From: Terrimonas sp.
GTDB taxonomy: Bacteria > Bacteroidota > Bacteroidia > Chitinophagales > Chitinophagaceae
Direction of reading: 5' to 3'
Length of the DNA: 64,000 bases
Assembly (NCBI RefSeq): GCF_003075435.1
Contig: NZ_QCZJ01000004.1
Location: 124,001 to 188,000 of the forward strand
Shown here: one piece after another, positions 39,518 through 54,956 of the stretch
How positions within the stretch are numbered: the stretch's first letter is position 1
Layout of the letters: every line of letters begins with the position of its first letter
Translations under genes and position numbers: made by a program
Notes under the pieces: generated by a model
Seen by the model: the letters and a program-made list of their open reading frames with translations, nothing else
What the model was told of the DNA's origin: nothing
The model's database searches: none

Positions 39518-40090
39518 ATGAAAATGTATCTATTATTAAGAAACAATGTTGAGTCGGGACCCTACTCTGTTGATTGCTTAAAGCAAATGCGCCTTGAAAA
39601 ATTTGATTTGATCTGGATAAAAGACGAAAGCATTACCTGGAAGTATCCATCAGAATTACAGGAGTTAAGGCAATATGCTCCCAAAGCTGAGCTTACATAT
39701 GCATCACTTGTGAACAATGCTAAGGAGAAACAAATCAGGTATTTCAGGGAGTATAATATTAACCTGGATTATAAAAAGATGAATATATCATATATCAACG
39801 AGCCTGATGCTTTCACTTCAGATATTCCTGAAGGTTACGAGTACCTTGTAGCCGCTGATAATGCAAACAGGTATGGAGGCAGCATGAGTGTGTCGGCAGG
39901 CTCAGATTTTAACACACCAAAAGAGGCCGGTAATGCGCCAGAGATTATAAATTATAATCTTATAGGGGAAAAGCAAAAGTTGGATACTGCTGAGATAATT
40001 GCTGATCATCAACAGTTTACAACCGTGATAAGTGTCAAAATCAAAAAGAAGGACCAGTCTTCGGGCTCAGGCTTTACAATCCGCAAATAA
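39518..40090 (+). CDS. GYF_2-like domain protein (first of a tandem pair)
   Basis: A 190-residue protein whose N-terminal 55 residues (MYLLLRNNVESGPYSVDCL, FDLIWIKDESITWKYPSEL) form a GYF_2/DUF4339-like domain, often used for protein binding. The rest is low in recognisable features and ends without a membrane segment. The paralogue at 40.4 kb is nearly the same in the N-terminal domain. It could be a cytoplasmic adaptor. Its gene is followed after about 120 bases by a strong terminator. Confidence 0.75.
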   Translation: MKMYLLLRNNVESGPYSVDCLKQMRLEKFDLIWIKDESITWKYPSELQELRQYAPKAELTYASLVNNAKEKQIRYFREYNINLDYKKMNISYINEPDAFTSDIPEGYEYLVAADNANRYGGSMSVSAGSDFNTPKEAGNAPEIINYNLIGEKQKLDTAEIIADHQQFTTVISVKIKKKDQSSGSGFTIRK

Positions 40091-40213
40091 ATCATACTGC
40101 GGATATTGCTGATTTATGGTTTTTATTCATTGCCTGTTGATCAGTTTAAATTATAAAATATACTAAAAACTGAGCTGATATTATTAAATGCTCAATTTTA
40201 TGTAATAACTTAG

Positions 40214-40255
40214 AGAACAGTTTATCGAAAATCATGGTAAACTGTTCTTTTTTTT
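40214..40255 (+). terminator. Strong intrinsic terminator
   Basis: AGAACAGTTTA (40214-40224) and TAAACTGTTCT (40238-40248) form an 11-base stem with a 13-base loop and a run of T. It lies between the two GYF_2 paralogues; the first gene ends 120 bases upstream. Confidence 0.85.
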
Positions 40256-40267
40256 GAAATACTCTGA

Positions 40268-40275
40268 TAACTTTG
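40268..40275 (+). promoter_or_regulatory. Candidate -7 promoter box for the second GYF_2 gene
   Basis: TAACTTTG matches TAnnTTTG, about 130 bases before the next start. It directly follows the terminator, so the two paralogues appear to be separate transcription units. No -33 TTG at the correct spacing. Confidence 0.42.
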
Positions 40276-40409
40276 TGCAACCCGCACACAACTTCTACTT
40301 GACCCGTAAATCCTTTCCTACGAATGTCTGTAATCCGGATTAATGCTTTGGATCATCCATTTCCTCTGAAATATGCCCATTAAGCTTTAGATCATAAACT
40401 ACAACATTC

Positions 40410-41078
40410 ATGAAAGCGTATTTGTTATTGCGGAACAACAAGCAAACAGGTCCCTATTCCCTTGAGGAATTGCAGCAAATGGGGCTGAAACCATTTGATC
40501 TTGTATGGATAGAAAGAAAAAGCAGCGCCTGGAGGTATCCTGCTGAAATTAAAGAGCTTGTTGCTTACACTTCTTCTGCGGAAAATTTTAATGATGCTAT
40601 AATAGATAACCCTGCACAGAAAGTGGTTAATATTTCAAGTGCGCCTGCACTTGCGAAAACAGGGTCAGATAATGTTTATGATTATGATTCACTGGAAATT
40701 TCAGAGAAATATATACGGCATGTTGTAGCATTGAAGCCTTCAATTGATAATACGCGGATACGCACCATCAAATCAAATACCTCCAAAAATATTGTTCATG
40801 TGCAGGTAAGGGATGCTGCAAACGAAGAACCTGTTGCTACAAGCACTGCAGGGGATTTGCAGAATGTTGCTCCTGCAATCAATAAGAGTTATATTGTTTT
40901 GCCTGAGCACAGGAGCACACAGGATGAAGGAAACATGGGTTATTCTTCTGAAAACGGGGCAATCCATATATTGAAAGGTCAGCATATTACGGATAATAAG
41001 CTTGAATGGGCGGTATTGATAATAGGAGCTGTTTCCCTGCTCGCAATAGTGTATCTATTAGTTACCTCCCCCTACTGA
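40410..41078 (+). CDS. GYF_2-like domain protein with C-terminal membrane anchor
   Basis: A 222-residue paralogue of the preceding gene. The N-terminal GYF_2-like domain (AYLLLRNNKQTGPYSLEEL, FDLVWIERKSSAWRYPAEI) is conserved, the middle is divergent, and the end has a membrane segment (LEWAVLIIGAVSLLAIVYLL, about 197-216) with a short tail. The topology would place the domain in the cytoplasm. The function is unknown. Confidence 0.78.
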   Translation: MKAYLLLRNNKQTGPYSLEELQQMGLKPFDLVWIERKSSAWRYPAEIKELVAYTSSAENFNDAIIDNPAQKVVNISSAPALAKTGSDNVYDYDSLEISEKYIRHVVALKPSIDNTRIRTIKSNTSKNIVHVQVRDAANEEPVATSTAGDLQNVAPAINKSYIVLPEHRSTQDEGNMGYSSENGAIHILKGQHITDNKLEWAVLIIGAVSLLAIVYLLVTSPY

Positions 41079-41172: not shown

Positions 41173-41811
41173 ATGTATTATCTTAAACATATCAGCGGTT
41201 GCATCATATTACTTGCATTTTTTTCTGTTAATATTTCTGCTCAGAAAAAAGCAGTTAAGCTATTTAACGGATACAACTTTGATGGATGGGAGGGTGATAC
41301 TGCAAAAACCTGGCGTATACAGGAGGGCAGCATTGTGGGAGGATATTTTGACAAGGTTGTTCCTGAAAATGATTTTTTAGTTACCACGAAAAAGTTCTCC
41401 AATTTTAATTTAAAGCTGAAATTTAAACTGATTGGCAAAGAGGGGTTTGTTAATACCGGCGTACAGTTTCATAGTATAAGGTTAACCAATCCTCCTAACG
41501 AAATGAAAGGTTACCAGGCTGATTTAGGCGATGGCTACTGGGGAAGCTTATACGATGAATCAAGAAGGAACAAAACACTAACGCCTATGGATACCGTGCT
41601 TTTAAAAAGGATTTTAAAGCGCAACGACTGGAATGATTACGAGGTACGATCAGATAATGGCCATATTACTATTTTCCTGAACGGCCATAAAACAGCTGAT
41701 TATACAGAACCAGATAAAACCATACCTCAGTCGGGTTTGATAGGTTTGCAGATTCACGGAGGAGGAAAAGTTGAGGTTTATTACAGGGATATTTTTATTG
41801 AGGAGTTATAA
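41173..41811 (+). CDS. DUF1080 / 3-keto-disaccharide hydrolase family protein
   Basis: An exported protein of 212 residues. A signal peptide (1-23) precedes a concanavalin-like beta-sandwich domain with KLFNGYNFDGWEGD, TWRIQEGSIVGG, DFLVTTKKFSNFNLKLKFKL, NTGVQFHS, and GLIGLQIHGGGKVEVYYRDI. The family is called 3-keto-disaccharide hydrolase in databases, and fits with Gfo/Idh/MocA oxidoreductases that make 3-keto sugars, but the nearest such genes are far away in the window. It converges on the biosynthetic operon. Confidence 0.85.
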   Translation: MYYLKHISGCIILLAFFSVNISAQKKAVKLFNGYNFDGWEGDTAKTWRIQEGSIVGGYFDKVVPENDFLVTTKKFSNFNLKLKFKLIGKEGFVNTGVQFHSIRLTNPPNEMKGYQADLGDGYWGSLYDESRRNKTLTPMDTVLLKRILKRNDWNDYEVRSDNGHITIFLNGHKTADYTEPDKTIPQSGLIGLQIHGGGKVEVYYRDIFIEEL

Positions 41812-41840
41812 TCCTCAAAAGTTTTATTCGGGCATTGTTG

Positions 41841-42980
41841 TTAAAATGGTTCTCCATGTGTTTGCCTGATAAGCTTTTCCACCATATTAGGAAATGGGTT
41901 CAGCGCATTAATGAATGAATTGGTTATCCATCTCTTTCCAAACATACCCTGGATTAAACGCCCTGTTGTAAGCCGGGTTTTGAAATGTTCATTCCATTTA
42001 TCCTGGTAAGCTTTTTCCATTTCATTCCTGCTTATTTTTCCCTGTAAAAAAGGATGTATTTGTTCAAAAGCTATTTTGCTCCCATGCATAGCCATGCTCA
42101 TGCCGTTGCCGCAAAGCGGGGCAATCATACCGGCTGCATCGCCGATCATGAGCATATGATGTTCAAGCTGTGTTTTTTTATCAAAACTGATCTGCGCTAT
42201 GGTTTCAGGTAAATTGTATAAAAATTCTGCTTCTGAAAATATTTTATTAAGATGTGGATTTTTACGAAGTATCTTTTCTTCCAGTTCCGGTATTGAATTA
42301 TTACAGCGTTTCAGATTTTTAGCAGTTGTGAGATAGCAAAGGCAGTATTTATCATCTTCTATTTTAGAAATGCCGCAGTAACCGTCATCGAAATTATGCA
42401 GTGCTATGCGGTTTGAAGGAAAGTTTGTTTTAATGTGATATTTAACGCCTATATAGTTATTGAGTTTATTCGGCTTTTTCTGTACAAAGCCTCTTTTCAT
42501 TTTTATATCAAGATTGCTTCGCTTGCCAAAGGTTCCGCAAACCTGTTTTGCCTTGTACATTTCATTGTCATACTGCACATGAAAACTGGAGTTATTGAAC
42601 CAGATATTATCAATTTTTGTTTCTTCTATTATTTCCGTACCGATGCTTCTGCTCAGGTTTGCAAGATATGCATCAAGCTTATAGCGACTGATACCAAAGC
42701 CTCCGAGTGGCAACCTGTGTTCAATGGTTCTGCCGGAAGGTGAAGAAACAGTAAGCTGCATAATATGAGGCAGATCCCAATCACTTAAAGGCACGCCCAG
42801 TTCTTCCAGAAAGTTCCAGCACTCAAAACTGATGTATTCACCACATACTTTATGAAATGGATATTTGTTTTTTTCAAACACAATTACTTTATGACCCTGC
42901 CTGGAAAGCTGGATGGACAGGCATAGCCCGGCTAACCCACCACCAACTATGGCGACATCATATGTCTGTTGTGTTGTCAT
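41841..42980 (-). CDS. FAD-dependent oxidoreductase of the type III PKS operon
   Basis: A 379-residue flavoprotein of the geranylgeranyl reductase / monooxygenase-like group. The start MTTQQTYDVAIVGGGLAG is chosen because its ATG overlaps the methyltransferase stop as ATGA (42977-42980); an upstream start would add 12 residues inside that gene. Motifs are GGGLAG for FAD, the RxxCGEYIS-type segment, and the second FAD motif GDAAGMIAPLCGNGMSMAM. It probably oxidises or reduces the aromatic or prenyl product of the operon. It is the last gene of four. Confidence 0.9.
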   Translation of the reverse strand: MTTQQTYDVAIVGGGLAGLCLSIQLSRQGHKVIVFEKNKYPFHKVCGEYISFECWNFLEELGVPLSDWDLPHIMQLTVSSPSGRTIEHRLPLGGFGISRYKLDAYLANLSRSIGTEIIEETKIDNIWFNNSSFHVQYDNEMYKAKQVCGTFGKRSNLDIKMKRGFVQKKPNKLNNYIGVKYHIKTNFPSNRIALHNFDDGYCGISKIEDDKYCLCYLTTAKNLKRCNNSIPELEEKILRKNPHLNKIFSEAEFLYNLPETIAQISFDKKTQLEHHMLMIGDAAGMIAPLCGNGMSMAMHGSKIAFEQIHPFLQGKISRNEMEKAYQDKWNEHFKTRLTTGRLIQGMFGKRWITNSFINALNPFPNMVEKLIRQTHGEPF

Positions 42981-43678
42981 TTTACTGTTATGAGCCACCT
43001 GAAAGCCCATTTCCATTCAATTGAGTAATGTTGTATACCCGATTGTTGCATAATGCGCACCCAATCTTTTTTAGTAAACCCTCTGGCAACGGACAAAGGG
43101 GCGTCGTGCTTTACAAGATAACTCTTTGAAAATAATTTTGTTAAACCTTTTATGGAAAAAAAAGCTAAAAAATGACGGTGAAGATCATTGATAAAAAAAC
43201 CTTTTGCGCTGTTATTGTGCATCCAGCGCATCATCAATATAAGCTCCGCATCAGTAAAATGATGACAAAACAGGGAAGAGAAAATAATGTCTGGTTTAAT
43301 GCTGCCGAGATCGGCTGTTTCATAACTGCTGTGTATCCATTGGTATGCGGGACCGTTTATTTTTTCTTTTGCAAAATCAATGCATTCTTTCTTTTTGTCG
43401 ATACCGGTTAAAGTTAGCGTATATCCTTTTTTCTTCGCCCATCTATCCAGGGCAATAAGATTATCTCCACCACCGCAACCAATCTCACAGACATTATATA
43501 TTTTATTTTTGCTTTCCTCTGAGCAAAGTATTTTTTGTAAGCCTGCTATTGTAATACTATGTCCGCCTAGCCAGGTATTGATGAAGTTCAGTTCCTGCAT
43601 ATTCTGCTTGATATCCTCAAACGGAATATCGTCATTATCCAGCAATTCTTTTTGGTATGAGCGATAGGGGAAGAACAT
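42977..43678 (-). CDS. Class I SAM-dependent methyltransferase of the type III PKS operon
   Basis: A 233-residue methyltransferase. Motif I is CEIGCGGGDNL (64-74) followed by LTLTGIDKKKECIDFA. The C-terminal half has GFFINDLHRHFLAFF, a typical post-motif region. It is likely to methylate the polyketide-derived phenol at O or C. It lies 32 bases after the polyketide synthase and overlaps the oxidoreductase by 4 bases. Confidence 0.88.
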   Translation of the reverse strand: MFFPYRSYQKELLDNDDIPFEDIKQNMQELNFINTWLGGHSITIAGLQKILCSEESKNKIYNVCEIGCGGGDNLIALDRWAKKKGYTLTLTGIDKKKECIDFAKEKINGPAYQWIHSSYETADLGSIKPDIIFSSLFCHHFTDAELILMMRWMHNNSAKGFFINDLHRHFLAFFSIKGLTKLFSKSYLVKHDAPLSVARGFTKKDWVRIMQQSGIQHYSIEWKWAFRWLITVK

Positions 43679-43710
43679 GGAATTAATACAATAATATGGG
43701 ATATTAATAC

Positions 43711-44805
43711 TTAGCCAATCATTTTGCCAATAAATGTTTCCATCGTCAAACCCGGGCCAAATGCTGCGCCAAATATTCTTTTGTTTGTTTTGGAAAGATT
43801 GTTTTTCATCATTTCCTTTAATACAAATAGTATGGTTGGAGAAGACATGTTGCCGAAATTCTCCAGTACATTATAACTATCGCCTAAGCTGCTGTTATCA
43901 ATCTGCAGGCTGTTGCTAACGGCTTCGAGTATGCGCTTTCCACCGGGATGGATGCACCAGCCGGCTATATCATTTTTATGCACAGCACAGCATTGAAGCG
44001 CTTTATGTACAAGCTGATCAAAATCTTCTTCAATTAGATCAGGAATATAGCCGCTTAACGTCATCTGGAAACCTGAAGACGAAAGTTCCCATGCCATATC
44101 TCTTTTACCGCGGGGAATAATCTCAGCATAAAAATTTTCAATTTCAAAGCCGGGTAGCGCATGGTCGTTATGTGTAACAAGCGCTGCGGCAGAGCCATCT
44201 GCAAATAACATGCTTGAAGTAATATTATCAACAGTCGCTTCTTTTTGAAAATGCAAAGTGCACAGCTCTGTGCAAACGATCAGCACTTTGGCGGCCGGGT
44301 CATTCTTACAAAAAGCATCCGCGATTTTTAATGCATGTATGGCGGCATAGCATCCCATAAAGTTTACAGATGTACGGAATGTGGTAGATGGCAAATCCAG
44401 TAAATCAACAATCTGCAGATCAAGCCCCGGTGCACTCATGCCCGTGCAGCTTACGGTTATCAGATGTGTAACCTGATCAGCAGGTATTTTGCCTGCTATA
44501 CAATTCCGTATTGCATCAACAGAAAGCGGCGCGGCATGCCTGTTATACAAAGCCATGCGTTGTTCCAGGGAAGGGAATGGTTCCAGGTTCTCACTCTGAG
44601 GATAAAATTTCCAGTCTACCACAGGCTTGCTGTAATCTGCTATTACCGAATATCTTTTTTGTATACCGCTTTGATGATACAGGAATTTCATTTTTCGCTG
44701 ATCTGCTGCATTATTCGCGTATACACGTTGCATAAACTGCAAAATATCTTCCTGCTGATGTTTGTAAGCGGGCACTGCAGTGCCTATATGAATGATTTTA
44801 CTCAA
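43711..44805 (-). CDS. Type III polyketide synthase (chalcone/alkylresorcinol synthase type)
   Basis: A homodimeric 364-residue thiolase-fold enzyme that condenses malonyl-CoA onto an acyl starter and cyclises it. The catalytic triad is complete: Cys120 (VSCTGMSAPG), His286 (WCIHPGGKRIL) and Asn319 (ENFGNMSSPT). The starter pocket cannot be read by eye; in bacteria the usual products are alkylresorcinols, alkylpyrones or phloroglucinol-like rings. Its start overlaps the end of the UbiA gene by 8 bases, a strong sign of a single operon. Confidence 0.95.
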   Translation of the reverse strand: MSKIIHIGTAVPAYKHQQEDILQFMQRVYANNAADQRKMKFLYHQSGIQKRYSVIADYSKPVVDWKFYPQSENLEPFPSLEQRMALYNRHAAPLSVDAIRNCIAGKIPADQVTHLITVSCTGMSAPGLDLQIVDLLDLPSTTFRTSVNFMGCYAAIHALKIADAFCKNDPAAKVLIVCTELCTLHFQKEATVDNITSSMLFADGSAAALVTHNDHALPGFEIENFYAEIIPRGKRDMAWELSSSGFQMTLSGYIPDLIEEDFDQLVHKALQCCAVHKNDIAGWCIHPGGKRILEAVSNSLQIDNSSLGDSYNVLENFGNMSSPTILFVLKEMMKNNLSKTNKRIFGAAFGPGLTMETFIGKMIG

Positions 44806-45682
44806 AGTAATGGTTTAAAAAAATGATGATGAAAGCTATATTGGTACATATAGATGCGATGATATTCATGCGCATGGTATTTTTATAGTTAGCATTTGAA
44901 TTATTGTGCCAAACTTTTATCGCCCATATAAAAAAATAAATTATTACCGGCGACATACAGATGCTGAAAATATAGAAAGCAGTGGTTTGTAAGCTATAAA
45001 AGAAATAAAAGGACAATAGTAAAAACGCCGATGTGTATACAATGCCACAATACAAAAAAGTACCTTTGTAACCGAGTGCATAGCTGAGGGTTTTTACGTT
45101 GTCTTTAATATCTGCCTCATGCTGGTAAATTTGTGTTAACGGATAAAATCCTCCGATCAGGAGGCTGGCTACGATCATTGGGGTAACGGGAGCGGATAAG
45201 GTTTTGCCAGCACTGCAGCCGTGGTATACCAGCCAAAACGTTACTGCGCCCTGAAATATAATAACAGTCAGGTATGCTGTAAAGGGATATTTTTTTAGCC
45301 GTATACCCCGGTAGCTATATGCTTTTGATGCCAGTATATAAGCAGTTATTCCTATGCCAAAATATATACTGATAAAAAAAGAAGTGATAATGGCTACACT
45401 GTCGAGCAATATAGTTGTGTGGAATAATTGCCTGGTGGGTTTCAGCGGCTTTTCAATGCCACCAATGCTTCCGGTATCCCTGTCCATATAACTATTGTAT
45501 CCGTTGCTTGCAGGGTAAACCAGTATATGCAGGATGATAAATATAGCGATGGTATGCATCACATTTATTTCAACCAGTTGGCTCAGGGCAAACCAGTATA
45601 CAGGCATAAGAAACAGGGAGAAGTGAAATCTCAGCAACTGTATGGTTGAAAGCTGAATAAATGTATTTGATGTAGCAGGCAT
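44798..45682 (-). CDS. UbiA family prenyltransferase of the type III PKS operon
   Basis: An integral membrane prenyltransferase of 294 residues with about 8 hydrophobic helices. The first Mg-diphosphate motif is seen as NSYMDRD (63-69), a variant of NDxxD, and the second as HEADIKDNVKTLSYALG near 188-204, matching DxxxD. It would attach an isoprenoid chain to the phenolic ring from the polyketide synthase. It is the first gene of the four-gene operon. Similar enzymes act on menaquinone or carotenoid precursors, but the context favours the polyketide. It overlaps the next gene by 8 bases. Confidence 0.88.
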   Translation of the reverse strand: MPATSNTFIQLSTIQLLRFHFSLFLMPVYWFALSQLVEINVMHTIAIFIILHILVYPASNGYNSYMDRDTGSIGGIEKPLKPTRQLFHTTILLDSVAIITSFFISIYFGIGITAYILASKAYSYRGIRLKKYPFTAYLTVIIFQGAVTFWLVYHGCSAGKTLSAPVTPMIVASLLIGGFYPLTQIYQHEADIKDNVKTLSYALGYKGTFLYCGIVYTSAFLLLSFYFFYSLQTTAFYIFSICMSPVIIYFFIWAIKVWHNNSNANYKNTMRMNIIASICTNIAFIIIFLNHYFE

Positions 45683-45762
45683 ATATGGATATAATAAGAT
45701 AGACGGCTGAAAAATCAGGTATTGTAAGGTAAGATTTTAGGTGATATTCCGGATTTGTTTAT

Positions 45763-45811
45763 TTTTTACCGCAAAGTTGCACAAAGATTTACGCAAAGGT
45801 CCACAAAGGAA
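45763..45811. repeat. Short CACAAAG-type repeat patch
   Basis: CGCAAAGTTGCACAAAG, CGCAAAGG and CCACAAAGG are repeated here, like the arms of the dispersed hairpin family but without its flanks or opposing arm. It may be a remnant. The 395-base gap 45683-46077 otherwise holds a decayed frame. Confidence 0.3.
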
Positions 45812-45919
45812 AATTGCGCTCAGCGGGCCTGCGATATCCCTATGCAATGCATACAGCGGTAAGCTGGTGCTGGTTCGGTAACGTTAGGCAAGCAGCAGAG
45901 CCAGACCAGTGCTAAGTCG

Positions 45920-46075
45920 TTATTTAATTAAACAGTAGTACAGTTTATTTTTCTCTAATAATTTTTGAAAAATTTCAATTAATCCATTTTTCTCTTTTAA
46001 CATCTGCTCAAAGAGCGCGATTTTTTCTTCACGTATATATGACAATGAATACGATGTTCCCGGGTAAAACGCTGC
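45920..46075 (-). pseudogene. Decayed C-terminal coding remnant
   Basis: A minus-strand frame runs for about 50 codons to a TAA at 45920-45922 and reads SLSYIREEKIALFEQMLKEK, NGLIEIFQKLLEKNKLYYC. The Glu/Lys-rich helix resembles the C-terminal end of HTH-type (XRE) regulators. No start codon or upstream part is found, because the sequence runs straight out of the DinB gene, in a different frame. A truncated gene is inferred. Confidence 0.35.
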
Positions 46076-46077
46076 TT

Positions 46078-46596
46078 TTAATTAGCGGCATATTGCGCTT
46101 TCAGGATATTTACTGTTACCATTAATTGCCCTGTATGGCGCTGCGTATGTTCCGCGGCATGAAAAAGCAATCCTGATACAGTAGAGGGAATTTGCTTCCG
46201 CCCAACGCCGCGGATTTCTGTTAATGTATTTTCATCGGTAACGGAGAGTTGGGCAATGGCTTTATCAACCTGTTTATTGAAATATTCAACAAGTTCTTTT
46301 GTACTGATGTCAGATGGTATTTCTTCCTGCTTTAAATACTGTAATTGTGGCTCAGCTAAAGTTTCTGCTTTTGCATAAGTAAACAGCCTGTCAAGCACGC
46401 CAGCCAGGTGCCGCAGGTGAAACCCGGGCGAAGCAACACCTGCTGGTTTTTCCCAAAGCATATTGTTGGGAAAATCATTCATGAAATAATTGATCTCTTC
46501 TCTCGCCTGTAATAATGCATGCGCTGTGGGTTGCAGCAAAGCTGGAATACCTGCTATTGGGCCGCGAAGCCAGACTTCCGGTAATGAATTGTTCAT
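46078..46596 (-). CDS. DinB family protein (second)
   Basis: A 172-residue four-helix-bundle protein. The start MNNSLPEVWLRGP is preferred over an ATG nine codons upstream. The family His residues are seen in SPGFHLRHLAGVLDRL and LLFHAAEHTQRHTGQ. It is unlike the DinB protein at 11.1 kb beyond fold. Function is not known; such proteins often are metal-dependent transferases. It lies downstream of nhaA beyond repeat copy D. Confidence 0.82.
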   Translation of the reverse strand: MNNSLPEVWLRGPIAGIPALLQPTAHALLQAREEINYFMNDFPNNMLWEKPAGVASPGFHLRHLAGVLDRLFTYAKAETLAEPQLQYLKQEEIPSDISTKELVEYFNKQVDKAIAQLSVTDENTLTEIRGVGRKQIPSTVSGLLFHAAEHTQRHTGQLMVTVNILKAQYAAN

Positions 46597-46646
46597 AAGT
46601 AAAATTACATTTATTCTGCGCAAAACGGAGATTCACCAACACTGAT

Positions 46647-47917: not shown

Positions 47918-48865
47918 CTACTGTTGTTGTTGCCCTGCCAGCCCTTCAACTATTGGTTCTTCCGGCCTGGCAGAGTGCTGCACACTCATTTTTACATTAT
48001 TTAATTCTTCAAATATATGGCCATCTTCATAACCAACCGATACATAGAGCGATAATGTTTGCCTTGCAGGTCCTTTAAAAGCGCCTTTTACCGGGGTGCA
48101 GTCTTTAAAATGTCTTCCTGCAGCGAGCTTAACATGCGCGTTGGTTACCCATACATTATTGGTGGGGTCAATGCCTGCCCAGCCATAACCCGGAATCCAT
48201 ACTTCCACCCATGCATGTGTAGCACCTTCGCCACGCATCCCGTTTTTATTGGGGCAAATGTATCCGCTTACATAACGGGAAGGTATACCTGCAGTTCTGA
48301 GCAATTGGAGCAACACATGCGCAAAGTCCTGGCAAACGCCGGCTTTGTGCGCTAATATTTCGTCTATAGTGGTTTCAATACTGGTAACATCTTTTATATA
48401 TTTAAAATGCTTAAACACATATTCAGCAAAATATTCTACCGTAGCGGCAACACTTTTACCTGAGCTTAATATGGGATCAACAATTTCTTTGATGGCTCCT
48501 GTTGCTTTTATGGTATCAGGTGTTGCCAATTCTAAAAACAGCAACTGGTTTTCCATCTCTTTTTTAAGATCGGTAAAGCTGCTGTGAAAATTTACATGTA
48601 ACTGGCTACCGAGCGTAGTGCGGATGATAAGCCTGCTTTCAATATTCAGAAAACGATGTGGAACAAGCACATTAAAAGAGCCTGTTTTGTTCCCCCAATA
48701 ATCCATATAGATTTCAACTTTAGGAGAATCGGTAATAGTAATATCGTGTTGTAATGTTTCCTGTTCCCGGCAAATGAAAGGATATAATTTTATTTCATTC
48801 GTGCTTTCCCGAACGGGCCTGTCATATTCATATCTGGTGATATGATGAATTTTATATACGGGCAT
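47918..48865 (-). CDS. Transglutaminase-like protein of the ATP-grasp operon
   Basis: A cytoplasmic 315-residue protein with an N-terminal beta domain (1-110) and a transglutaminase-like cysteine-protease-fold domain. The catalytic triad is Cys178 (GVCQDFAHVLL), His217 (ATHAWVEVWIPG) and Asp233 (GIDPTNN). It belongs to the group of transglutaminases linked with alpha-E and circularly permuted ATP-grasp proteins. It could cut or join peptide bonds made by the ATP-grasp enzyme. It follows the alpha-E gene by 13 bases. Confidence 0.9.
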   Translation of the reverse strand: MPVYKIHHITRYEYDRPVRESTNEIKLYPFICREQETLQHDITITDSPKVEIYMDYWGNKTGSFNVLVPHRFLNIESRLIIRTTLGSQLHVNFHSSFTDLKKEMENQLLFLELATPDTIKATGAIKEIVDPILSSGKSVAATVEYFAEYVFKHFKYIKDVTSIETTIDEILAHKAGVCQDFAHVLLQLLRTAGIPSRYVSGYICPNKNGMRGEGATHAWVEVWIPGYGWAGIDPTNNVWVTNAHVKLAAGRHFKDCTPVKGAFKGPARQTLSLYVSVGYEDGHIFEELNNVKMSVQHSARPEEPIVEGLAGQQQQ

Positions 48866-48878
48866 TTAACAATGTTAG

Positions 48879-49820
48879 TTATTGATAAGAAAAAAAGTTT
48901 TGTCCTAATTGATTACTGAACTGTAACATCTCGTTCTGTGCCTCATCAAGAAAGGATTTTAAATTACTGCTGTTTAACGAAGTTTGATCCATGTATTTAA
49001 TCCTGCTGCTTAATTTCCGGAATAATCTGAGTAGCTCATTATTCGCCGGGGATTGATTTTCCTGCACAATATCGTTCAGGTATTTTTCAATGCGGGTTAA
49101 AGTATAGATAACGGAATGTGGAAAGTCTTCATTAAATGTAATCTGGTGCAGTACATTGCGGTTATAATTGTGTGTACGGTAAGTTTTCAGATGCAGTTCA
49201 TAACCGGATAAGGAGAATAGTAATTCCTTCCAGTGTATCATTGCTTTATCAGAACTGAGATCATAATTGATCATTTCATAATGCTTATCGCAAAACGTAA
49301 GTATTTCAAAGCACCTTTCTGTAAACTTACCCATGTTCATAAAGCTCCAGCCAAGTCCGCGTGGCATGGTCATATCCGCAATGCCTGTAAATAAAAGACT
49401 GTGTTGTGTCAGTTGCTGTAGTATCTGCAAAACATCACGCTCATCAAAACGTTCGTTTATAGTTGATTTGTTGATATAGTGATACATGGCGTTTGTTTCT
49501 TCCCACACTTCCTTTGTAATATGATCCTGTGCGCCTCTTGCATTTTCGCGGGCACGGGTTAAAATAACTTTCAGCGAACTGTGGTTATTCTGATCGCTGA
49601 TAAGCATACGCAATGCCGCATGTGAGTCATATTCAATTTCCTTAATAGTGCTTTGGTCTGCAGTAGTAAATATTTCAAGCACGGGGCGCCATGATTTGTC
49701 GCCCAACACCACATTATCGAGCGACATAAGATAGTGTGTTCTGGTTGCTCTTAATAAACCATCGGCCCTTTCCATATATCGGCTTAGCCAGAATAAAGAG
49801 TCAGCAATTCTACTTAACAT
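48879..49820 (-). CDS. Alpha-E domain protein
   Basis: A 313-residue almost entirely helical protein of the alpha-E (COG2307) family. It starts with MLSRIADSLFWLSRYMERAD, a near-invariant motif, and has NARGAQDHITKEVWEETNAM and MPRGLGWSFMNMGKFTERCF. No enzyme function is established for the family. It is always found with the permuted ATP-grasp protein, here 112 bases upstream, and with the transglutaminase. Confidence 0.92.
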   Translation of the reverse strand: MLSRIADSLFWLSRYMERADGLLRATRTHYLMSLDNVVLGDKSWRPVLEIFTTADQSTIKEIEYDSHAALRMLISDQNNHSSLKVILTRARENARGAQDHITKEVWEETNAMYHYINKSTINERFDERDVLQILQQLTQHSLLFTGIADMTMPRGLGWSFMNMGKFTERCFEILTFCDKHYEMINYDLSSDKAMIHWKELLFSLSGYELHLKTYRTHNYNRNVLHQITFNEDFPHSVIYTLTRIEKYLNDIVQENQSPANNELLRLFRKLSSRIKYMDQTSLNSSNLKSFLDEAQNEMLQFSNQLGQNFFSYQ

Positions 49821-49829
49821 GTTTTAGCA

Positions 49830-49925
49830 TTTGAGATTTGAAATTGGAAATTTGAGATTTGAAATTTTAGATGTGTTTGCAAAACTGTCATGAAATCTGA
49901 AAGCAAGTAATTTCAAATCTCAAAT
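49830..49925. repeat. Intergenic phrase-repeat hairpin in the ATP-grasp operon
   Basis: TTTGAGATTTGAAAT occurs twice in direct orientation (49830-49844 and 49851-49865, period 21), and its exact complement is at 49910-49924. It fills the gap between the ATP-grasp and alpha-E genes, so it may weaken or tune downstream transcription, or be an mRNA processing hairpin. Confidence 0.65.
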
Positions 49926-49932
49926 CAATAAT

Positions 49933-51381
49933 TTATAAGTCTACTATCCAGGTATCCTTGCTTCCGCCTCCCTGCGAGGAATTTACCACAAGTGACCCTT
50001 CTTTAAGCGCAACCCTTGTTAACCCGCCAGGCACAATGGTTACGCCATCTGGTCCACACAATGCATAAGGTCTGAAATCCACATGCCGCGGTTTAAACTT
50101 ACCATCAATAAAGCAGGGAACCGTTGATAGTTTGATGATAGGCTGAGCTATAAAACTTCTCGGGTCTTTTTCAATTTCCACTTTTGCTTTTTCCCATTCT
50201 TCATCACTTACTGTGCTGCCCATAACCATACCATAACCGCCGGACTGGTTGGTCCTTTTTACCACCATTTTCCTGATGTTTTTAAACACGTGTTCTCTTG
50301 CATCGGGCTCACTCATTTCGTAAGTCGGTACGTTTTCCAAAATAGGTTCTTCGTTAAGATAGTATTTTATCATTGCAGGCACATACGCATATACCGCTTT
50401 GTCGTCTGCAACGCCATTGCCTATGGCATTTACGATAGCCACATTCCCTTTTCTGTAAGCGCCCATTAACCCCGGCACACCCAATACGCTTGTTGGGTTA
50501 AATACCAGCGGATCAAGAAATTCATCATCCACCCTTCTGTATATTACATGCACCTGCTCCAGTCCTTTGGTTGTTTTCATATATACTTTATGATCGTCTA
50601 CCACAAGATCGCGGCCTTCAACCAATGAGATGCCCATCTGCTTTGCAAGAAAAGTATGTTCATAATACGCAGAGTTATATATGCCCGGTGTTAATAGTAC
50701 AACAGTGGGATTAGATACCTGGGTTGGTGCAAGCTTCAGTAAGTTCTGGTATAATATTAAGGGATAATTATGGATAACCCTTACGTTGTTTGCGGCGAAT
50801 ATATCAGGGAAAATTCTTTTCGTTACTTCCCTGTTCTCCAGCATATAGCTTACGCCTGATGGTGTGCGCAGGTTATCTTCCAGTATGTAAAACCTGCCAT
50901 CATCGCCTCGTATCAGATCAATGCCTGATATATGCACATAAATATCATGCGGGACTTTAATGCCATGCACTTCACGCAAAAAATGCGGGCAGGAAGCAAT
51001 GAGCTCTACAGGAACTACTTTATCATTGAGTATCTGCTGTTGATTATAAATGTCTTTCAAAAACATATTCAGCGCTTTAAGGCGCTGCGTTATGCCCTTT
51101 TCAACTACGTCCCATTCCTTACCGGTTATAATACGCGGAATAATATCAAACGGAAATATTCTTTCAATACCCTTGTTATCGCTGTATACAGTAAATGTTA
51201 TACCCTGGTTCATAAACAATTCACTCGCCAGCAGATCTTTTTGCTGAAGATCAGGAACGTTGAGGTTTTGAAATGAAGAAACCATTTTGGTGTAATGGCT
51301 GCGTACTTTTCCTTCTGTGCACATTTCATCCCAAATGTCTGGCGGGCAGGTGTACTCATTTAGCAAAGTTTCAATACTCAT
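49933..51381 (-). CDS. Circularly permuted type 2 ATP-grasp protein
   Basis: A 482-residue predicted amide-ligase. The start MSIETLLNEYTCPPDIWDEM is taken at 51381; ten residues of an upstream extension look non-native. Motifs include FPFDIIPRII, YILEDNLRTPSGVSYMLENR, YRRVDDEFLDPLVFNP, NQSGGYGMVMGSTV and the substrate or nucleotide-binding end FRPYALCGPDGVTIVPGGLTRVAL in two parts. Members are proposed to make peptide bonds with an unknown substrate. It follows the DUF2126 protein after 125 bases and leads the alpha-E/transglutaminase genes. Confidence 0.93.
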   Translation of the reverse strand: MSIETLLNEYTCPPDIWDEMCTEGKVRSHYTKMVSSFQNLNVPDLQQKDLLASELFMNQGITFTVYSDNKGIERIFPFDIIPRIITGKEWDVVEKGITQRLKALNMFLKDIYNQQQILNDKVVPVELIASCPHFLREVHGIKVPHDIYVHISGIDLIRGDDGRFYILEDNLRTPSGVSYMLENREVTKRIFPDIFAANNVRVIHNYPLILYQNLLKLAPTQVSNPTVVLLTPGIYNSAYYEHTFLAKQMGISLVEGRDLVVDDHKVYMKTTKGLEQVHVIYRRVDDEFLDPLVFNPTSVLGVPGLMGAYRKGNVAIVNAIGNGVADDKAVYAYVPAMIKYYLNEEPILENVPTYEMSEPDAREHVFKNIRKMVVKRTNQSGGYGMVMGSTVSDEEWEKAKVEIEKDPRSFIAQPIIKLSTVPCFIDGKFKPRHVDFRPYALCGPDGVTIVPGGLTRVALKEGSLVVNSSQGGGSKDTWIVDL

Positions 51382-51506
51382 AATAAAGTGGTTTATAGTG
51401 CGGCAATACATCAGCGCATGTGCTGTATAATATTTACCTGCTATTAACGGAATATACCGATAAAATCAACGGTAAAAAAATTTTGACAGGGTTATCTGTA
51501 TGCATC

Positions 51507-54500
51507 CTAATACATTTTTTTATTCCAGTGCTGCCTGAGATCAAGCGTTTTTGGAAATTCTTTATTGATCTCTACCTCCGGCAAATGCCCTACAGCGGAT
51601 ACTGTATTTTTTTCTGTGATATAATGCCGCGAAGGAGAAATGTCTGCACGGGTTTGTATTACACCCTGTGTATGCCCGTGATCCCAGAAGCGGCTTACCC
51701 TTCTTGATTCTGCTTCGTAATTGTTTACAGGGAATGTATCATAGCTTCTTCCTCCGGGATGAGATACATGATAGGTGCATCCGCCTACAGAACGTTTACT
51801 CCAGGTATCAACAATATCAAATACCAAAGGGGAGTCTACGCCAATGGTTGGGTGCAGTGCGGATGGTGGTTGCCATGCACGGTAACGTATACCTGCAATA
51901 TATACTCCTTTTACATCGGTTGCCGAAAGCGGCACACGGCATCCATTGCACAGCAATATATACCTGTCGCTGTGCAGGTTTGTTAATTTAACCTGTACTT
52001 TTTCCATAGATGAATCCACAAATCTTGCGGTGCCGCCCGAAGACATCTCTTCGCCTAGTACATGCCATGGCTCTATGCCCATTCTTATTTCGAGCGTTAT
52101 ATCTTTTACCGTTATCGTTCCGTAATGCGGAAACCGGAATTCAAAATATGGATCAAACCAACTCATATGGAAAGGATAGCCGGCCTCATTCAGAAATTCT
52201 ACTACATCCTGCATGTCTTTATGTACATAATGGGGCAGCATAAATTTATCATGCAGCTCTGTTCCCCATCTTATCAGGTCATGTTTATAAGGTTTTTTCC
52301 AGAATGTGGCGATCAATGCTCTTATCAATAGCATTTGTACCAGGCTCATTTGCTTATGCGGCGGCATATCAAATGCGCGGAACTCTAATATGCCTAATCG
52401 TCCTGATGATGAATCAGGAGAGTATAGTTTATCAATACAAAATTCTGCCCTGTGTGTATTGCCGGTTATATCGGTAAGTAAATGCCGGAATAACCTGTCT
52501 ACCAGCCAAAAAGGTACACTGCTGTTTTCAGGAATTTGTTTGAAAGCAATTTCCATCTCATACAACTTTTCTTCCCTGCCTTCATCAATACGTGGCGCCT
52601 GGCTGGTTGGGCCAATAAACGCGCCTGAAAACAGGTAGGAGAGGGCAGGATGATGCTGCCAGTAGGTGATGAGGCTGCGCAGCAGATCTGGCCTCCTCAA
52701 CAGCGGGCTATCTGAAGGCGTAGCGCCGCCAATGGTAATATGGTTGCCGCCGCCCGTGCCGGTATGTCTTCCATCAAGCATAAACTTTTCTGTGCCGAGG
52801 CGGGATAAATATGCCTGGTGGTAAAGCGTGTTGGTATTGTATAACAGATCTTCCCAGCTTTTTGAAGGATGAATGTTTACTTCAATTACACCAGGGTCTG
52901 GTGATACTACCAGGCGCTCAATGCGATAATCTCTCGGTGGTTCATACCCTTCAATGCGAACAGGCATCTGCAACTTTTCAGCGGTTCTCTCAACAGAAGC
53001 TACAAGATCGAAGTAGTGCTCTAAATAACTTACCGGCGGAAGGAAAATATATATAATGCCATCACGTGCTTCAATACAGATAGCAGTTTTAATAACATCA
53101 GTTTCAAAAACCGGCGGTATGGTTGATTCCTCGTCTTCATCTGTCTTTTTCTTCCTGCCTTTTTCTTTCTCTTTTTTATCAGATATTTTTTGAGCCTGCA
53201 AAGGTTGTTTTACAGCCGGGTGTTCTGCCACTAACCCATACCGTGAGGTAATGATCTCCTGGTAAGAGGGTAGTGGTTCAAATTCTTCAAACAAACTTCT
53301 TTCTACCTGTTGCGGTTCTTTGTTTTTTGCAGCAACAGGTAAACTGTTAAGTGGTAGCCTTAAGCCGATAGGTGAATTACCAGGCATAAGAAAAAGGTAT
53401 TCCCTGTTGAGCCGCCATTTGCAGCTACGCCATTTATTATTCCAGTGATTCCATTCAACAGGGAGTATAAATCCGGCGGGAGAATCGAGCCCGCGATCGA
53501 GCAGTTGTCCCAGGGTACGGCGTTCTATAGAATCTTTTAAATTATATTTAAGCGGATCAATATTTACAGGTGTTTTACCTTCCGTCCACAAGAAATAAAA
53601 AACATCCTCATACGCAGGGGTAATATTTTCAGTGCTTACTGCCAGGCATTTTGCCAGTTCTTCCATGAACAATTGAGCGTCTTTGTACGTATATTTCTGC
53701 GGACTGTTTTCCAGCGCCATGAGTTCCTTGTTTTTCCAGACAGGAAAACCATCCTTACGCCAGTATAAGCCATATTGCCAGCGGGGTAGCGGTTCGCCGG
53801 GATACCATTTTCCCTGTCCGTGATGCAACATCCCGTTCGGACCGAAAGCTTCCCGCAAACGGAAAATGAGATCATGAGATAAAATACGTTTGTGCAAACC
53901 GTCAGCAGCGGTATTCCATTGCGCTGATTCCATATCATCGATGGAAACAAAGGTTGGTTCGCCACCCATTGTCATGCGCACATCCATTGCTTTCAGGTCT
54001 TCATCTACTTTGTATCCTGTAGCATCTATTGCTTCCCATTGCTCATCAGTATATGGTTTGGTAACGCGGGGATCTTCATGTATCCGTGTAACTGTGTTTA
54101 AAAAACTAAATTCAGTTTCACCCGGGTCCTTAGCGCCAACAACAGGTGCTGCGCTTGCATAATCCGGCGTACATGCAAGGGGAATATGCCCTTCGCCTGC
54201 AAATAAACCGGAGGTAGGGTCAAGCCCTATCCATCCTGCACCCGGAATATATACTTCTGTCCATGCATGCAGATCGGTAAAGTCGGCTTCAGGACCTGAA
54301 GGTCCGTCAAGCGATTTAATATCCGCCGTTAGCTGAACCAGGTAGCCTGATACAAATCTTGCAGCCAGCCCAAGATGGCGAAGTATCTGTACCAGTAACC
54401 ATGCGGAATCCCGGCAGGACCCCAGGGCTTTACGCAATGTCTCATCAGGTGTTTGCACACCCGGTTCCATACGTATAGTGTATGCAATATCTTTATTAAC

Positions 54501-54956
54501 AGCCTGGTTTATCTTCACCAAAAAATCAACTATCGGCGTTTCTTTTGAAATATCAATATGCTGCAGCCATTGTTTTAAAAGCGCGCCGCTTTCCTTTATT
54601 TCAAGATAGGGCGCCAGTTCTTTTTTCAGTGTACCCTGGTATTCAAACGGAAAATGCTCAGCATATTCTTCTACAAAAAAATCAAAAGGGTTAATAACCG
54701 TCATTCTGGCGATTACTTCCACTTCAATGCTCAGTTCCCTGGTTTTTTCAGGGAAAACCACTCTTGCCTGGTAATTGCCGAAAGGATCCTGCTGCCAGTT
54801 AATGAAATGTTCGGCAGGTTTTAGTTTAAAAGAATATGCTTCAATGGGAGTGCGTGAATGTACCGCAGGACGTAAACGAAAAATATGCGGTGACAGCGAC
54901 ACGGGTCTGTCGTAAGAATAAGTTGTTTTGTGGTTTATTGCTACTCGTATTGCCAT
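51507..54956 (-). CDS. Transglutaminase-DUF2126 fusion protein
   Basis: A large cytoplasmic protein of 1149 residues. The N-terminal 270 residues hold a transglutaminase domain with Cys181 (LGSCRDSAWLL), His230 (TDLHAWTEV) and Asp246 (GLDPTSGL). The DUF2126 region follows (from about 300 to the end) with DVRMTMGGEPTFVSIDD, GNSPIGLRLPL, NHITIGGATPSDSPLLRRPD in parts and FDMPPHKQMSLVQMLLIRAL, which resemble a glutamine-synthetase-type amidoligase scaffold. A Lys/Glu-rich linker (about 595-620) divides it. It starts the operon and is among the largest proteins in the window. Confidence 0.9.
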   Translation of the reverse strand: MAIRVAINHKTTYSYDRPVSLSPHIFRLRPAVHSRTPIEAYSFKLKPAEHFINWQQDPFGNYQARVVFPEKTRELSIEVEVIARMTVINPFDFFVEEYAEHFPFEYQGTLKKELAPYLEIKESGALLKQWLQHIDISKETPIVDFLVKINQAVNKDIAYTIRMEPGVQTPDETLRKALGSCRDSAWLLVQILRHLGLAARFVSGYLVQLTADIKSLDGPSGPEADFTDLHAWTEVYIPGAGWIGLDPTSGLFAGEGHIPLACTPDYASAAPVVGAKDPGETEFSFLNTVTRIHEDPRVTKPYTDEQWEAIDATGYKVDEDLKAMDVRMTMGGEPTFVSIDDMESAQWNTAADGLHKRILSHDLIFRLREAFGPNGMLHHGQGKWYPGEPLPRWQYGLYWRKDGFPVWKNKELMALENSPQKYTYKDAQLFMEELAKCLAVSTENITPAYEDVFYFLWTEGKTPVNIDPLKYNLKDSIERRTLGQLLDRGLDSPAGFILPVEWNHWNNKWRSCKWRLNREYLFLMPGNSPIGLRLPLNSLPVAAKNKEPQQVERSLFEEFEPLPSYQEIITSRYGLVAEHPAVKQPLQAQKISDKKEKEKGRKKKTDEDEESTIPPVFETDVIKTAICIEARDGIIYIFLPPVSYLEHYFDLVASVERTAEKLQMPVRIEGYEPPRDYRIERLVVSPDPGVIEVNIHPSKSWEDLLYNTNTLYHQAYLSRLGTEKFMLDGRHTGTGGGNHITIGGATPSDSPLLRRPDLLRSLITYWQHHPALSYLFSGAFIGPTSQAPRIDEGREEKLYEMEIAFKQIPENSSVPFWLVDRLFRHLLTDITGNTHRAEFCIDKLYSPDSSSGRLGILEFRAFDMPPHKQMSLVQMLLIRALIATFWKKPYKHDLIRWGTELHDKFMLPHYVHKDMQDVVEFLNEAGYPFHMSWFDPYFEFRFPHYGTITVKDITLEIRMGIEPWHVLGEEMSSGGTARFVDSSMEKVQVKLTNLHSDRYILLCNGCRVPLSATDVKGVYIAGIRYRAWQPPSALHPTIGVDSPLVFDIVDTWSKRSVGGCTYHVSHPGGRSYDTFPVNNYEAESRRVSRFWDHGHTQGVIQTRADISPSRHYITEKNTVSAVGHLPEVEINKEFPKTLDLRQHWNKKMY

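Follow-up and report, generated by a model that had tools for sequence, protein, structure and literature searches.

Positions 41,841 to 45,682 of a 64,000-nucleotide stretch of the Terrimonas sp. genome (the window; assembly GCF_003075435.1, contig NZ_QCZJ01000004.1, positions 124,001 to 188,000) hold an operon that combines a type III polyketide synthase (PKS) with a methyltransferase (MT), an FAD-dependent oxidoreductase (here called FAD) and a membrane prenyltransferase of the UbiA superfamily. The Pfam assignments of all four proteins exceed the gathering scores, and in the order of transcription the genes are as follows:

44798..45682, minus strand: UbiA-superfamily membrane prenyltransferase, first gene of the operon (294 amino acids; PF01040)
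43711..44805, minus strand: type III PKS (364 amino acids, TTG start; PF00195/PF02797)
42977..43678, minus strand: class I S-adenosylmethionine-dependent MT (233 amino acids; Methyltransf_25)
41841..42980, minus strand: FAD-dependent oxidoreductase, probable ring hydroxylase (379 amino acids from the ATG at 42980; FAD_binding_3)

The UbiA and PKS genes overlap by 8 bp and a gap of 32 bp separates PKS from MT, in agreement with an earlier note on this DNA that had described four minus-strand genes overlapping or lying no more than 32 bp apart. The FAD open reading frame (ORF) spans 41841-43016 and so overlaps MT by 40 bp; the gene is likelier to span 41841-42980, since a start at this ATG would give a 4-bp ATGA overlap with the MT stop codon. 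This PKS is the only type III PKS of the source genome (6.2 Mb in 82 contigs).

Within the GTDB family of the window, the four genes are inherited together. Among 195 sampled genomes a PKS search at E 1e-20 found matches in 98, and once 12 that had nothing nearer than a distant PKS (25-34% identity) were excluded, 86 genomes (44%) carried a close PKS. UbiA was present in 84 of these 86 versus 1 of the 109 others, FAD in 86/86 versus 7/109, and MT in 84/86 versus 6/109, being absent from G054 and G120. Outside the 86, five genomes with MT and FAD have a cluster of a different type (FAD-MT-PKS, described below), G165 has UbiA, MT and FAD with no PKS found, and G112, which is 69% complete, has FAD only. 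The Fisher values for this co-occurrence (< 1e-44) are overstated, since related genomes and linked genes are not independent observations, and for this reason the unlinked cases weigh more. In a congener (G028) the MT-FAD pair lies about 327 kb from UbiA-PKS on the same contig, in G144 UbiA is on a contig other than that of PKS, and in G088 FAD is on a separate contig. Near-perfect co-occurrence, also where the genes are unlinked, thus supports the proposal of the earlier note that the four genes are one functional unit. The same note had regarded separation of the genes in relatives as evidence against it; such separation does occur, but in a literal sense only, as the genomes concerned still carry the genes, with the exception of G062 and G069, in which no UbiA was detectable.

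The arrangement itself is also conserved, in many bacteria of soil and water. We compared 98 family loci from 97 genomes (G079 gave two, and G033, with a fragmented PKS, was left out), and all four genes lay within 6 kb in 73 of them. The remaining loci comprised FAD, MT and PKS (9), PKS alone (8), MT, PKS and UbiA (5), PKS and UbiA (2), and FAD, PKS and UbiA (1); several incomplete loci stop at contig ends. Of the 73 complete loci, 71 show the same order on one strand, and two (L082 and L083) carry UbiA on the opposite strand. Median spacings between the longest ORFs of the complete loci were -8, -4 and -8 bp. Order conservation and co-occurrence rule out chance clustering, and we found no obligate fifth gene, the other neighbour families (ORFs of at least 90 amino acids within 9.5 kb) occurring in at most 30 of the 98 loci. 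A set of named relatives, which has genomes in common with the family sample and is limited to the 80 best out of more than 577, gave a similar picture, with the four genes in order at 71 of these 80 loci. The closest PKS from a named genus was that of Agriterribacter humi (76%), and further named matches were mostly from Chitinophagaceae (such as Niastella, Cnuella, Ferruginibacter and Segetibacter), on which basis we equate the window's family with Chitinophagaceae. At eight loci one or two genes are missing; seven of these loci are shorter than 6.5 kb, and the eighth (L289) has no MT. The remaining one (L266), whose PKS frame is open upstream, sorts differently. As a separate observation, in two loci of one genus (L071 of G062 and L068 of G144) a single gene family replaces UbiA upstream of PKS, and the L071 copy encodes PAS and histidine-kinase domains.

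We extended the search to 395 genomes of the phylum, with the window's own family partly included, of which 179 had a PKS match at E 1e-20. UbiA stood beside PKS in 13 of the 59 loci taken outside the family, divergently transcribed in 12 of the 13, with MT and FAD also nearby in 9. Gene order and strand vary there, and PKS loci with a linked UbiA thus extend beyond the family, into further classes of the phylum as well. In all six non-family genomes with a close PKS and no adjacent UbiA (G353, G569, G263, G334, G345 and G377), the same UbiA subfamily was found elsewhere in the genome (E <=1e-83). A search at E 1e-10 gave no match to this subfamily in 6/6 genomes of the FAD-MT-PKS type, and in genomes of the outer PKS-MT type it gave weaker matches in 3/5 (5e-27 to 1e-33) and none in 2/5; G062 and G069 were again without a match.

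In a PKS tree of 72 rows (a quick search supported by SH-aLRT only, in which L126 was flagged for a long branch and eight rows for their composition), all 36 UbiA-linked rows fall in one supported clade of 42, which nests in a larger group including the PKS of Paludisphaera, Deinococcus and Roseomonas. A PKS from a Psychrobacter plasmid lies inside the UbiA-linked clade, yet no UbiA was found in the 11 kb seen; this placement perhaps reflects transfer. The UbiA label requires six changes on the tree, and therefore the linkage has been gained or lost several times.

Two further cluster types were observed in these genomes. One, without UbiA, has the order FAD-MT-PKS followed by genes for an SDR reductase, a FabA-like dehydratase and a ketosynthase (L084:7160-12567, with the same order in L089), and its FAD-MT-PKS portion recurs in 12 loci. 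The other (L087, L088 and L123) has a distant type III PKS adjoining an ICMT-family methyltransferase and looks bps/srs-like, with Pfam assignments made in L087.

The PKS itself (PF00195 6e-29, PF02797 6e-25) has an intact catalytic triad, as the earlier note had stated, with His286 and Asn319 correctly placed. The nucleophile is Cys152, in an NFMGC motif, and not Cys120 as given there, which sits in an SCTG motif aligned to Ser143 of PKS18. Across the UbiA-linked loci the triad is conserved (Cys 94/94, His 94/94, Asn 93/94 with one gap). Trp239 and Met248, nine residues apart, correspond to ArsB Trp281/ArsC Gly284 and to Met293; this match relies on the nine-residue Trp-Met spacing. At this site Trp promotes an aldol-type closure of the ring, which gives resorcinols, and Gly promotes lactonisation to pyrones (PMC6274091, PMC9927152). 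Trp occupies position 239 in 94/94 UbiA-linked loci and in 32/32 loci of a PKS-MT group without adjacent UbiA, and Phe does so in 12/12 FAD-MT-PKS loci. In pairwise alignments the residue is Leu in PKS18, a pyrone synthase, and Trp in Steely1, the best solved relative of the PKS (1e-46). Trp239 thus agrees with resorcinol formation by this enzyme and is no proof of it.

It is unlikely, in our judgement, that the ring is instead a pyrone, a phloroglucinol or another non-resorcinol, in which case the product would be a meroterpenoid of pyrone or acylphloroglucinol type, bearing prenyl and methyl groups, and not a quinone. PKS18 and Mycobacterium relatives rank among the best solved matches of the PKS, Trp239 is not unique to resorcinol formers among the loci compared, and the best NCBIfam match is the DpgA model NF042429, all of which are compatible with such a ring; on the other side, Trp239 and Met248 fit a resorcinol-type geometry (PMC6274091), and homologues of the MT and FAD adjoin resorcinol synthases. 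An identity as DpgA (3,5-dihydroxyphenylacetyl-CoA synthase) was rejected, as the match reached 147.6 bits against a cut-off of 425.

UbiA matches PF01040 (E 6e-15; 55.6 bits versus a gathering score of 34.2) and falls under every NCBIfam cut-off, its best model being PRK12884 with 31 bits versus 269; among 45 relatives the best NCBIfam E value was 1e-13, and a search of the PDB with the UbiA profile gave no match at E 0.01. Since the curated NCBIfam cut-offs were not reached, the named equivalogs (MenA, UbiA/MqnP, CtaB, ChlG, homogentisate phytyltransferase and EboC) were discarded. UbiA-superfamily enzymes carry a first motif NxxxDxxxD and a second motif DxxxD. In an alignment of 94 rows (81 from the family and 13 from other families), residues N60, N63, D67, D69, Y122, R128, K130, Q184, Q187 and D191 were constant in the PKS-linked rows. 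In the first motif N63, D67 and D69 are invariant and position 71 is variable; the second motif was not found, QxxQxxxD standing in its place, with Gln184, Gln187 and Asp191 in 93/94 rows and the last row masked at these positions. We favour a prenyltransferase with a changed diphosphate/Mg site over some other activity, and, judged from these sequences, this UbiA is a divergent subfamily, dedicated to the operon and without a name yet. The source genome has seven UbiA-family genes, the operon's included; by NCBIfam the others are a heme O synthase, UbiA/MqnP-like, PRK12872-like and decaprenyl-phosphate phosphoribosyltransferase-like proteins, an EboC and one matching no model. A role of the operon's UbiA as housekeeping quinone prenyltransferase was rejected given these six others, one of which passes TIGR01475.

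A different account of UbiA, which we hold to be rather improbable, is that the product is an ordinary alkylresorcinol or alkylquinone whose tail is a fatty acyl chain, as in the hid and pkq systems discussed below, and that UbiA participates indirectly, with another acceptor or a non-prenyl role. The three-gene core does exist without UbiA in planctomycetes, Deinococcus, Roseomonas and Psychrobacter, in the FAD-MT-PKS clusters, and in G062 and G069; Cys182 of the PKS is aligned to Cys205 of the acyl tunnel of PKS18, and the active-site residues of UbiA are altered. However, UbiA follows its PKS clade almost one to one, and the altered residues are conserved over the 94 rows, as would be expected of a specific function.

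Homologues of the MT (Methyltransf_25, 3e-9) adjoin PKS genes of four other phyla or classes, represented by a planctomycete, Deinococcus, Roseomonas and Psychrobacter, and the family MT profile scored 103-141 bits against those of Roseomonas, Psychrobacter, Paludisphaera and Deinococcus. The earlier note had drawn a comparison with srs-type operons, which are not the closest ones for a class I MT with these relatives. SrsB and BpsB are ICMT-family methyltransferases; the srs/bps-type pairing was not found here, the operon MT belonging to Methyltransf_25, and an ICMT gene adjoins other PKS genes (L087).

For the FAD protein (FAD_binding_3, 2e-9), the family profile matched the FADs of the same four operons with 23-138 bits. 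Among NCBIfam models it scores highest with TIGR02032, the geranylgeranyl reductase family (94.2 bits versus a cut-off of 158.8), and its top matches among solved structures are halogenases and flavin monooxygenases. These matches would suit an enzyme that reduces the prenyl chain or halogenates the ring, yielding a saturated-prenyl or halogenated phenol, a possibility that we find improbable. The motif YxWxFP marks geranylgeranyl reductases and WxWxIP flavin-dependent halogenases; both were missing from all 73 FAD family members, which, together with the TIGR02032 cut-off not being reached, argues against a prenyl-reductase and likewise against a halogenase. The FAD gene also accompanies MT and PKS in genomes that lack UbiA. 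From this persistence and the absent motifs we read the FAD protein as probably a ring hydroxylase or oxidase.

Operons of the PKS-MT-FAD kind are already known, and the dedicated, divergent UbiA is the new part; in this respect the earlier note was right to see the prenyltransferase as a genuine addition. The hierridin genes hidABC of cyanobacteria encode a type III PKS, a class I-type MT and an FAD oxidoreductase, as here (PMC10896814, PMC8086630), and all three family profiles match the planctomycete operon of Paludisphaera, whose FAD and MT share about 22-23% identity with those of the window. In hidABC and the planctomycete operon the order is MT-FAD-PKS and, in the accounts available, the standard cluster has no UbiA, whereas here it is UbiA-PKS-MT-FAD; one Raphidiopsis hierridin-like cluster has a prenyltransferase, remarked as unique (PMC8086630). 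Planctomycete PKS enzymes form alkylresorcinols, which gain one methyl group, probably on carbon, when the Gimesia maris MT and FAD are co-expressed; what FAD does there was left open (PMC10896814). In pkqABC of Mycobacterium smegmatis and Streptomyces and in srsABC of S. griseus, PKS is followed by a methyltransferase and an oxidoreductase or hydroxylase, as here, the resorcinol is converted to a benzoquinone, and a role as electron carrier has been proposed (PMC9927152, PMC5916927). Compared by description, pkq and srs differ from this operon in that the accessible accounts mention no prenyltransferase and that the starter's alkyl chain forms the lipid tail.

More distant parallels come from meroterpenoids. 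In the plant pathways to cannabinoids and daurichromenic acid a ring of the alkylresorcinol type is formed by a type III PKS and then prenylated (PMC5037138). These pathways are eukaryotic and are without a methyltransferase like that of the operon. Their prenylation is carried out by UbiA-type enzymes, with genes unclustered or differently organised and with different oxidases. In Streptomyces meroterpenoids such as marfuraquinocin and furaquinocin the polyketide ring is prenylated and methylated, like the product predicted here; they are made by large clusters with soluble ABBA prenyltransferases and a tetrahydroxynaphthalene synthase. In the literature searched, where subscription papers were thinly covered, we found no account of a UbiA-PKS-MT-FAD four-gene cluster. 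The main text of a Bacteroidetes survey (PMC9248904) nowhere contains 'type III', 'PKS III' or 'resorcinol', and type III PKS clusters are listed for Reichenbachiella and Fulvivirga in papers whose accessible parts do not describe them.

Because the four genes form one unit and UbiA adds to known operons, the product is most naturally predicted to be a phenol or quinone with methyl and prenyl groups. We consider it somewhat more probable than all alternatives together (roughly 0.55) that these genes serve one dedicated pathway, in which a polyketide phenol is prenylated and oxidised to a membrane lipid of the hydroquinone or quinone type. The match of Trp239 and Met248 to the ArsB/ArsC sites speaks for this pathway, as do homologous PKS-MT-FAD operons that make alkylresorcinols or are linked to polyketide quinones. 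From the established gene content, overlaps, co-inheritance and PKS clade we infer every reaction, and the order of the MT, UbiA and FAD steps, as follows. The PKS would condense an acyl starter with malonyl-CoA, and aldol ring closure would give a resorcinol or resorcylic acid, which the class I MT may methylate on C or O. The membrane UbiA would then move a polyprenyl chain from the cellular polyprenyl diphosphate pool onto the ring, and the FAD enzyme would hydroxylate the ring to a hydroquinone, able to become a benzoquinone. The predicted product, possibly a quinone-like lipid new to the literature, would be a resorcinol or benzoquinone that carries prenyl, methyl and hydroxyl groups.

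Several observations weigh against this pathway. In UbiA, position 187 is Gln, where the two aligning paralogues of the same genome have Asp and Glu, and the first motif has no conserved third Asp, which leaves prenyl transfer a putative activity. UbiA is not indispensable everywhere, G062 and G069 having PKS, MT and FAD with none detectable. Trp239 occurs in 18/19 unrelated loci as well, PKS-ICMT pairs included, and is not diagnostic. Identity of the FAD protein to the FADs of the named operons is 20-26%, and the weak Deinococcus match covers 69 residues only.

The genes flanking the operon appear unrelated according to Pfam, namely a convergent 3-keto-disaccharide hydrolase-like gene (41173-41811) and, upstream, a DinB-family gene (46078-46623). 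A scan of 41400-46200 for sigma-70-like sites gave 19 versus 16.4 expected and was uninformative for the operon promoter; a Bacteroidetes-type consensus had one match in the window, away from the operon. Elsewhere in the window, minus-strand genes at 47918-54956 encode a transglutaminase, an Alpha-E protein, a circularly permuted ATP-grasp protein and a 1149-amino-acid transglutaminase/DUF2126 amidoligase, and at 39518-41078 (plus strand) two adjoining genes have similar N-termini (MK.YLLLRNN), with one borderline GYF_2 domain match.

Respiratory prenylquinones, as usually described, have a ring derived from chorismate. In polyketide quinones the tail comes from the acyl starter (PMC9927152). 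If UbiA does add a prenyl tail to a polyketide ring, the pathway would join both routes and represent another way to a membrane quinone, and its four-gene size makes it easy to express and test. Going further, we advance as a rather speculative idea that the product may be a prenylquinone with a type III polyketide ring instead of a chorismate-derived one, a look-alike of ubiquinone or plastoquinone made with an unnamed UbiA subfamily, which could serve as an extra respiratory carrier or membrane antioxidant beside menaquinone. As 44% of the sampled family carry the close PKS and UbiA-linked forms occur in other families and classes, the compound, if real, would be widespread.

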